DNA from: Solimonas soli DSM 21787
GTDB lineage: Bacteria; Pseudomonadota; Gammaproteobacteria; Nevskiales; Nevskiaceae
Length of the DNA: 64,000 bases
Direction: 5' to 3'
Assembly: GCF_000474945.1 (NCBI RefSeq)
Contig: NZ_KI440836.1
Location: 419,917 to 483,916 of the forward strand
Position 1 is the stretch's first letter. The number at the start of each line of letters is the position of its first letter. The notes beneath the pieces are model-generated. The model saw nothing but the letters and a program-made list of their open reading frames with translations. It made no database searches and was not told the DNA's origin. This document shows positions 10,585 to 15,954 of this stretch, in pieces. A program made the position numbers and the translations under genes.

Positions 10585-14388
<3,804 letters not shown>

Positions 14389-14418
14389 GGCGGCGGACGG
14401 ATCGCGGCGGAGGAAGCG

Positions 14419-14452
14419 GCCGAGTATATCTGCTTATGCGGATGAACGGATC
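14419..14452. promoter_or_regulatory. Candidate metH operator
   Basis: Inverted repeat ATCTGC-TTAT-GCGGAT at 14428-14443 (5 of 6 arm positions pair), next to a further ATCCG half-site copy on the minus strand at 14447-14451. It sits about 40 nt upstream of the metH ATG in a locally AT-rich patch. ArsR-type SahR and LysR-type MetR regulators are known to act upstream of metH/metE in proteobacteria; which, if any, binds here is not decided. Confidence 0.45.
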
Positions 14453-14535
14453 GTAAGCGGCCGCCGTAGCCGTTCGTCCGCCGGCAAGGACCTCGCATCC
14501 CGTGCGGGCGCCATCGCGTCCGCCGCGCCCGTAAG

Positions 14536-14645
14536 TTACCGATGCCGGCGTTTGCCGACGCCGGCACGGTTCCCCCAACCCGGATTTCCCCAACCTTTCC
14601 GGGTTACTGAGGGCCAGGTCTTCGATCTGGTCCTTTCTTTTTCCC
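14536..14645 (+). ncRNA. Candidate three-hairpin small RNA or leader ending in a terminator
   Basis: Three consecutive perfect or near-perfect hairpins on the + strand. Hairpin 1 is TGCCGGCGT (14543-14551) / ACGCCGGCA (14558-14566). Hairpin 2 is AACCCGG (14577-14583) / CCGGGTT (14599-14605), with a C-rich loop holding TTTCCCCAACC. Hairpin 3 is GGGCCAGGTC (14611-14620) / GATCTGGTCC (14624-14633) followed by TTTCTTTTT. A related TTCCCCCAACC lies just before hairpin 2. No ORF is inside. It lies between divergent metH and alkB, so it is either a free-standing sRNA or a terminated leader. No known RNA family recognised and no clear promoter seen upstream. Confidence 0.5.
14611..14643 (+). terminator. 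Intrinsic terminator of the candidate small RNA
   Basis: Ten-pair stem (two G-U pairs) with a TTC loop at 14621-14623, followed by TTTCTTTTTC. No protein gene ends upstream of it on this strand. Confidence 0.75.
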
Positions 14646-14699
14646 GCCGCCTTTTTCCGGCCTTGCCCGGCCGCGCCGCGACCGCCCGTCGCCGACCTT

Positions 14700-14726
14700 T
14701 TGACTTTAATTAAACGATCGGATAAT
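14700..14726 (+). promoter_or_regulatory. Candidate sigma70 promoter of alkB
   Basis: TTGACT at 14700-14705 and GATAAT at 14721-14726, separated by 15 nt inside an AT-rich stretch that stands out in this GC-rich DNA. It lies about 55 nt before the alkB start. The spacer is shorter than the ideal 17. Confidence 0.5.
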
Positions 14727-14778
14727 TTCGCCTCCGTCACCTTGCCGTGACCGAACCGAACCGTATGAGGAGAGAACC

Positions 14779-15954
14779 ATGCATACAGCCAGCCTCGCAC
14801 CGGCGTGGCGCGACAACAAGCGCTACCTGTGGCCGCTCGGCGGCATCATCATGCTGCTGGTGCCGATCGCCGGCGTGCTGTACCAGGCGACCGGCTGGGG
14901 CGGCTGGTGGTGGCTCGGCCCGATGGTGGTCTACGGCCTGATTCCGCTCGCCGATCTGCTGGTCGGCTCCGACACCAACAATCCGCCCGAGGCGCGCGTG
15001 CCCTCGCTCGAGAAGGAGCGCTACTACCGCTGGGCGGTGTATCTCGCCGTCGCCTGCGAATACGTGTCGGTGATCTGGGGCGCATGGATGGCGGCCAACG
15101 GCGGCCTGCCCTGGTACCACATCGTCGGCCTGGCAATGACCATCGCCATGGTCACCGGCGTGTCGATCAACACCGGCCACGAACTCGGCCACAAGACCGA
15201 CAAGCTCGAGCAGTGGCTCGCCAAGATCGCGCTCGCGCCGACCGCCTACGGCCATTTCTTCGTCGAGCACAACCGCGGCCACCACGTGCGCGTGGCGACG
15301 CCGGAGGATCCGGCCAGTTCGCGCTTCGGCGAGAGCTTCTGGGCCTTCCTGCCGCGCACCATGGTCGGCAGCCTGAAGTCGGCCTGGGAGATCGAGGCCC
15401 GGCGCCTGCGGCGCAACGGCAAGCCGGTATGGTCGCTGCAGAACAACAACCTCAATGCCTGGGCGATGACGGTCGTGCTGTTCGGCGGCCTGGCGGCCTG
15501 GCTGGGCGGGCAGGTGCTGCCGTTCCTGCTGCTGCAGGCCTTCGTCGGCGCCTCGCTGCTGGAGGTCGTCAACTACCTCGAGCACTACGGCCTCATGCGC
15601 GAGCGGCGCGCCGACGGCAGCTACGAGCGCTGCCAGCCGCGGCATTCGTGGAACAGCAACCAGATCGTCACCAATGTGTTCCTCTACCAGCTGCAGCGGC
15701 ACTCGGATCACCACGCCAATCCGACGCGCTCCTACCAGTCGCTGCGCCACTTCGACGAGGCGCCGCAGCTGCCGACGGGCTACGCCGGCATGATCCTGCT
15801 CGCCTACCTGCCGCCGCTGTGGTTTAAAATCATGAACCCCCGGGTCGTCGCGCACTACGAAGGCGACATGAGCCGGGCCAACATCAAGCCGGAGATCCGC
15901 GACGCCGTGATCGCCCGGTATGCGCCGCAACGCCGCGGCGGAGCCGTGGCATAG
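14779..15954 (+). CDS. alkB: Alkane 1-monooxygenase AlkB
   Basis: Integral-membrane di-iron enzyme that hydroxylates the terminal carbon of medium-chain n-alkanes, with electrons from rubredoxin. The 391-residue sequence shows the four AlkB histidine motifs: HELGHK, EHNRGHH, the alkane-hydroxylase signature NYLEHYG, and LQRHSDHH. About six transmembrane helices are visible. The ribosome-binding site AGGAGAG lies well placed before the ATG. Rubredoxin follows 102 nt later, but beyond a strong terminator. Confidence 0.96.
   Translation: MHTASLAPAWRDNKRYLWPLGGIIMLLVPIAGVLYQATGWGGWWWLGPMVVYGLIPLADLLVGSDTNNPPEARVPSLEKERYYRWAVYLAVACEYVSVIWGAWMAANGGLPWYHIVGLAMTIAMVTGVSINTGHELGHKTDKLEQWLAKIALAPTAYGHFFVEHNRGHHVRVATPEDPASSRFGESFWAFLPRTMVGSLKSAWEIEARRLRRNGKPVWSLQNNNLNAWAMTVVLFGGLAAWLGGQVLPFLLLQAFVGASLLEVVNYLEHYGLMRERRADGSYERCQPRHSWNSNQIVTNVFLYQLQRHSDHHANPTRSYQSLRHFDEAPQLPTGYAGMILLAYLPPLWFKIMNPRVVAHYEGDMSRANIKPEIRDAVIARYAPQRRGGAVA

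Follow-up and report, generated by a model that had tools for sequence, protein, structure and literature searches.

In Solimonas soli DSM 21787, a 64,000-nt stretch of which was analysed here (the window), a row of strong hairpins ending in a terminator lies between metH and alkB, and the question raised by this locus is what such a structure does at a site where no gene ends. The two neighbours, metH (start 14388, minus strand) and alkB (start 14779, plus strand), are transcribed in opposite directions with the hairpins in between, and the site is therefore the 3′ end of no gene. The name alkB is based on the adjoining rubredoxin and on the assignment in the first-pass annotation; the product matches Pfam FA_desaturase only and has no NCBIfam match. 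As shown below, the site is very probably the gene of a small regulatory RNA, which occurs in 15 of the 15 genomes of Solimonas and its closest kin that were examined. We infer that it is transcribed from near 14544 to near 14642, which would give an RNA of ∼100 nt. The features of the locus are as follows.

10585–14388, minus strand: metH, the divergent neighbour (NF007024 and TIGR02082 above cut-off, NCBIfam)
14428–14443, no strand: operator-like palindrome of metH, ATC-N10-GAT (comparison of the sequences before metH)
14470–14480, plus strand: conserved upstream box 1, CCGTTCGTCCG, a candidate factor site (six invariant columns)
14491–14500, plus strand: conserved upstream box 2, CCTCGCATCC (four invariant columns)
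14532–14537, plus strand: −10-like TAAGTT (TANNNT; invariant columns)
14538–14570, plus strand: hairpin 1 (HP1), strong in the window, sequence unconserved (fold; comparison)
14570–14576, plus strand: C-rich unpaired link TTCCCCC, a candidate target-pairing segment (CCCCC in 15/15 Solimonas loci)
14577–14605, plus strand: hairpin 2 (HP2), stem AACCCGGA/TCCGGGTT, loop TTTCCCCAACCTT (CCCCAA in the loop in 15/15 Solimonas loci; models R1 and R2; pair counts)
14609–14642, plus strand: intrinsic terminator and T run (9/9 pairs changed on both sides)
14700–14726, plus strand: promoter-like stretch for alkB (TTGAC...GGATAAT), 3′ of the terminator (sequence pattern)
14779–15954, plus strand: alkB, the downstream neighbour (Pfam FA_desaturase; adjacent rubredoxin)

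The first-pass annotation had placed three hairpins here, ending in a terminator where no gene ends, and its coordinates proved right. The interval 14500–14670 (171 nt) folds at −82.1 compared with a dinucleotide-shuffle mean of −59.1 (sd 3.8, z −6.14), and 14544–14645 folds at −48.6 compared with a mean of −30.2 (sd 3.6, z −5.17), with none of 200 shuffles as stable as the native fold for either interval. The terminator stem spans 14609–14635 and is followed by TCTTTTT on the plus strand. A consensus scan of 14380–14790 found this terminator where 0.5 terminator-like sites are expected by chance, so that the terminator by itself is unremarkable and its conservation is the remarkable part. Two unpaired copies of TTCCCC(C)AACC had also been described; the HP2 loop copy (14586–14595) is indeed wholly unpaired, whereas in the link copy only TTCCCCC is unpaired and AACC forms the 5′ side of stem 2. 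C-rich segments in the window RNA are confined to the link and the HP2 loop, and neither the HP1 loop (TGCC) nor the terminator loop (TTC) is C-rich; the S. aquatica RNA carries CCCCC in its HP1 loop and terminator loop as well.

The ten-locus alignment exhibits an invariant CCCCCAACCCGGA, followed by CCCCAA and then by a terminator with changed sequence but kept pairing. The unpaired CCCCC of the link and CCCCAA of the HP2 loop persist in 15/15 Solimonas loci, while the sequence of the terminator varies. The three stacked hairpins do not hold as a conserved unit, as the sequence of HP1 is unconserved and what is conserved is the C-rich link, HP2 and the pairing of the terminator. In 17 model-aligned sequences (16 distinct), 97.6% of the cells are paired and 11 of the 16 pairs have changes on both sides, a count reached in 0/500 shuffles; fitting the alignment to the structure favours this outcome, and the shuffles ignore relatedness. 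When the structure is slid along the alignment, paired cells fall to 55% or less. The covariation resides mostly in the terminator, in which all nine pairs have changed on both sides; four of the seven pairs of stem 2 never vary and two change on both sides, these two-sided changes appearing only in the other genus, with the stem nearly invariant within Solimonas.

The distribution of the RNA was followed by DNA search and with R1, a covariance model built on 10 loci. The DNA search of 100 relatives gave matches in 11, namely the own genome of the window (G000), nine of the ten other genus members and G012, the last a match of 24 nt that is taken as chance. R1 finds the core throughout the GTDB genus (11/11 genomes, of which 10 supplied the training loci and the untrained G001 scores 69 bits, E 1.1e-14), and in 4/4 genomes of a second Solimonas clade (S. 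fluminis, SE-A11, BWSM_106 and G036, the last placed with the other three by its GTDB genus) at E 1.8e-10 to 4.9e-10. The covariance model from relatives that the first-pass annotation had looked to thus recovers 15/15 Solimonas genomes, with the two-sided changes described above. Across the order, R1 matched 40 of 85 genomes at E 0.05, the 15 Solimonas being strongest and the matches outside Solimonas all lying at E 3e-6 or weaker, many of them read as chance. An exact core pattern gave 25 matches in the genome_contigs collection (84,980 species), of which seven fall in Solimonas (variicoloris, flava, terrae, fluminis, aquatica, SE-A11 and BWSM_106); judged by eye, the return stem and the terminator are present in 7/7 of these and both together in 0/18 of the others.

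Beyond Solimonas, in another genus, R1 detects two relatives next to metH, in G013 and G034. The best R1 match of G013 has an E of 1.3e-5 and lies ∼250 bp from metH, with no alkB inside the fetched flank. G034 gives 30 bits beside metH when its locus alone is searched, and a third relative, a C-rich three-hairpin RNA beside metH in G024, was recognised by eye only, R1 giving no match at that locus; the genome-wide R1 search left G024 and G034 without a match. A survey of metH gave matches in 54/58 genomes, 30 with loci, and 23 upstream stretches were read. The RNA lies at most 900 nt from metH in four of the 23 (G001, G013, G034 and G024), is displaced by 1.8–2.9 kb in five (G006, G007, G017, G028 and G040) and was not seen in the remaining 14. 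The ATC-N10-GAT palindrome precedes metH in 22 of the 23 family stretches read, and it agrees with the common SahR/SamR consensus of PMC4239095.

Several matches were set aside on reading (L018 and L019; L032–L034, L044, L045, L050 and L052–L054; L184 and L185), as were L183 and L186, each with a tRNA in the locus, and L105 (16.3 bits); L048 and L051, whose loci are cut, stand outside this reading. Four more (L031, L035, L046 and L047) belong to another recurring hairpin element, in which repeats of the GATCAATTG/AATCAGTTG type and of TTGC are followed by a CTCCTCCAGATCCCGC hairpin and then by a terminator. G001 has two copies of this element, and G051 and G033 have one each.

Conserved elements also precede the RNA. 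Six columns of box 1 (C, C, T, T, C and G) are invariant in 10/10 loci of an unanchored alignment, and box 1 is present in 16/16 loci of a second line-up (for G036, the first of two box 1 matches was used), a count that is partly built in because the search pattern itself requires five of its bases. In box 2 (CC.CGCATCC), C, C, T and C are invariant in 10/10 loci of the unanchored alignment, and positions 21, 22, 28 and 29 are retained in 14–16 of the 16 loci. The A and final T of TANNNT are likewise invariant in 10/10 loci of the unanchored alignment, with the first T in at least nine; at position 62 of the second line-up, at a fixed spacing from box 1, the T and A are found in 12/16 loci and the last T in 14/16, none of these bases being required by the box 1 search pattern. 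Three of the second clade's four loci have this element one base closer to box 1. A sigma-70 consensus scan of the locus returned no promoter, and box 1 with one mismatch was found six times in the whole window compared with 5.0 expected, i.e. at chance level. A tie between box 1 and the metH operator half-site (CGGAY-N3-CGG) was considered and dropped, as the window contains that motif at 17 places and the likeness is therefore no evidence; for G017 and G028, moreover, an incorrect box had entered the comparison.

The upstream elements do not depend on the neighbourhood of metH. In S. flava and S. variicoloris (L009 and L010) a second alkB-rubredoxin pair is located between metH and the RNA. 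The distance from the RNA to metH is 1.8 kb in these two species and ∼2.9 kb in the second clade, and in both cases the upstream elements remain with the RNA. At L036, the sole second-clade locus read for neighbours, a DUF1631 gene adjoins the RNA, and the next one after it has the opposite orientation. The gene downstream of the RNA in the 11 genus loci is alkB in eight, rubredoxin in two and neither in one. Because the upstream elements accompany the RNA away from metH, the site is very probably an independent small-RNA gene, and on synteny a leader of either metH or alkB was rejected. The proposal of a small RNA with C-rich unpaired motifs thus gains support from conservation, covariation and the upstream elements. 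A coding reading (a 144-aa ORF from 14279) was rejected, as the spacings between conserved blocks differ among loci by numbers of nucleotides not divisible by three.

Four other explanations were weighed. If the RNA were a cis-acting leader or attenuator of alkB and rubredoxin, with an upstream start and a conditional terminator, the presence of one or the other gene downstream of it in 10 of the 11 genus loci would be accounted for; but alkB and rubredoxin are both missing from the flanks of all four second-clade loci, the next genes in the one locus read there are oppositely oriented, G013 is without alkB inside the fetched flank, and a promoter-like stretch separates the terminator from alkB in four of the five loci inspected (L001, L009, L010 and L011, with no match in L030). 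We therefore consider such a leader decidedly unlikely. A 5′ leader of metH, which would act in cis on the minus strand, is more doubtful still and in our view very improbable: the RNA is close to and divergent from metH in 9 of the 11 genus genomes, but the T run of the window follows the stem on the plus strand, and the RNA persists with its upstream elements 1.8 kb (S. flava and S. variicoloris) and ∼2.9 kb (second clade) away.

It is similarly hard to credit that these are chance hairpins or a dead terminator with no function. Stable hairpins are common at high G+C, and half a terminator-like site is expected here by chance, but a fold z of −6.1, the occurrence of the RNA in 15/15 Solimonas genomes searched and the covariation all speak against this. 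Alternatively, the RNA might act as a sponge, its C-rich segments titrating an RNA-binding protein instead of pairing with mRNA, and the retention of two near-identical C-rich motifs in 15/15 loci agrees with this; we nevertheless regard it as unlikely, since no known protein motif was recognised on reading the RNA and the closest precedent, sX13, acts through mRNA pairing (PMC3771888). A trans-acting small RNA gene of ∼100 nt, whose C-rich segments pair with G-rich ribosome-binding sites, is what the site probably represents.

As such, the link CCCCCAACC and the loop CCCCAACC would pair with GGUUGGGG or GGGUUGGG stretches at ribosome-binding sites and, as for sX13, this pairing would block translation, with the HP2 stem presenting the loop and the terminator forming the 3′ end. 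Target prediction with the C-rich motifs, which the first-pass annotation had put forward, yielded one recurring candidate, and an excess of motif matches that may have a simpler explanation. The pattern GGTTGGGG-N2-14-ATG gave 61 matches compared with 25 for the reversed pattern (six genomes), and GGGTTGGG-N3-13-ATG gave 81 compared with 40 (eight genomes); Shine-Dalgarno bias alone could be sufficient for the forward excess of both. The 136 fetched loci hold 140 distinct motif-plus-ATG places, of which 32 passed a crude ORF filter, and two frames recur between genomes: a pair at L143 and L151, taken as non-coding, and a gene whose product has a bMG1-like domain (PF17970 at 24.6 bits, where the cut-off is 26.4), identified with the first pattern in G000 and G006 and, judged by position, with the second in G002 and G009.

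The ribosome-binding site of this gene would be the first target lead. In 10 of 14 orthologues (a fifteenth is cut, and start codons were hand-chosen) it includes at least 7 nt that are perfectly complementary to the RNA found in that genome, compared with 4/42 long-ORF starts of the window as control (7/42 for at least 6 nt). The gene was chosen because it recurs in G000 and G006, and three of the ten matching orthologues are one clade; without G000, G006 and G007, the basis of the choice, at least 7 nt are complementary in 7/11 orthologues. G009, which has an altered loop, shows a 10-nt match to the link, and G003 a 9-nt match to its own loop and stem edge. The 7-nt match of G005 is plain GGAGG plus stem bases and not the C-rich motif, and the complement reaches 5–6 nt only in G008, G010, G001 and G004. 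The gene is thus put forward as a lead, no proof, from sequence complementarity.

A second kind of C-rich RNA is found at polA. Among 369 genomes of the class, 15 have a match to model R2 at E 1e-4. Besides the own genome, one of these belongs to the order, and 13 lie outside it. Nine of the 13 (L174–L182) show several hairpins in series, of which hairpin 2, the terminator and in most cases also hairpin 1 have C-rich loops, and the other four were read as chance. The flanks of the nine contain engB in eight and polA in seven, each having at least one of the two, and none reaches an Rfam threshold. Additional families of Gammaproteobacteria have C-rich multi-hairpin RNAs at this polA-engB locus (L174–L182, L040 and L043), and no polA-linked RNA reached an Rfam threshold where tested. 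L040, from a relative within the order, has tandem copies between polA and engB. With the sX13 model they reach 38 and 35.7 bits (threshold 50), with anti-hemB 35.7 and 37.2 bits (threshold 49.5) and with 6C 34.7 (threshold 47); the likeness to sX13 is not exclusive, because anti-hemB and 6C score nearly as much.

C-rich multi-hairpin RNAs are likewise located downstream of polA in Solimonas and relatives (L200–L216, including L208 of the own genome, G000:C2, near 407 kb on the contig). R2 scores in 18/18 polA loci, at 16–30 bits, and a common ACTCCCTGG[GA] hairpin is present in 17/17 examined (G034 left out), twice in four, which by this marker have the RNA in two copies. GAACTT-N16-17-TCTAA/TCTGA, which we take to be a sigmaE-like motif, lies upstream of the polA-linked RNA in 16/17 Nevskiaceae loci. 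Solimonas thus has two separate RNAs of the C-rich kind, one downstream of polA and one linked to metH. They have in common a series of hairpins, C-rich loops and a terminator, and R2 detects both; the polA-linked RNAs differ in locus and in the sequence that precedes them, which is GAACTT-N16-17-TCTAA/TCTGA, whereas the metH-linked RNA has its boxes there. The metH-linked RNA may be a paralogue or a convergent relative of the polA RNA, likeness to a C-rich model being no proof of descent. We tentatively entertain the possibility that, in Solimonas and near relatives, the two separate RNAs have a common target language. The polA-locus RNA would then lie under a sigmaE-like promoter and the metH-linked RNA, with its different upstream elements, would be an old duplicate of it re-wired to another signal, the polA-locus type being far wider in Gammaproteobacteria than Xanthomonadaceae, the family that sX13 is reported to be restricted to. 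The polA-locus RNAs would allow the sX13 mode of action to be tested outside plant pathogens.

Among known RNAs, no Rfam family reaches threshold in the window, and the first-pass annotation had likewise matched the RNA to no known family. A literature search found no paper pairing Solimonas with a small RNA, and the literature on sX13, sX14 and the polA locus gave no title on the metH-linked RNA among the matches listed. The RNA very probably constitutes, on its sequence features, a small-RNA family without an Rfam match at threshold but of a known functional kind, and it adds to Solimonas a well-conserved family that lies below every Rfam threshold. In an Rfam search of the window up to E 10, the best sub-threshold families were sX14 and ncS035, and sX13 was absent from the matches. 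The sX13 gathering score (50 bits) is not reached at the window, and RF02232 has three sub-threshold matches elsewhere in the genome, at 29, 25.7 and 17.8 bits; the first two were read as terminators behind genes that we take to be dapD-like and rplS-like. The same model also matches below cut-off in 3/14 control genomes.

The metH-linked RNA is a candidate member of the trans-acting C-rich class, with an intrinsic terminator, upstream elements that are conserved and a C-rich motif that is kept unpaired. sX14 (RF02233) provides the best sub-threshold match, over the full model and with its three hairpins in register, at 19.6 bits compared with a gathering score of 80 (E 0.18), and has no CCCCAACC in its printed consensus. 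ncS035 (RF02870, Burkholderia) has a loop with CAACCCCCA in the hairpin preceding the terminator, as does the metH-linked RNA, and its weak full-length match has 14.6 bits compared with a gathering score of 79 (E 0.41). According to PMC3771888, sX13 is always downstream of polA, is found only in Xanthomonadaceae and has 4C/5C loops that require G-rich motifs in their targets. sX13 (RF02232) and the metH-linked RNA are both strongly structured with unpaired C-rich motifs; sX13, however, lies downstream of polA and has a C-rich apical loop (4C/5C) on all three of its stems, whereas the RNA of the window lies beside metH and departs from this design in being C-rich only in the link and the HP2 loop. 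sX13 represses mRNAs that carry G-rich motifs close to the start codon, and it does so independently of Hfq. By analogy, the metH-linked RNA most likely works like Xanthomonas sX13 and, like it, would be expected to act on G-rich motifs near start codons.
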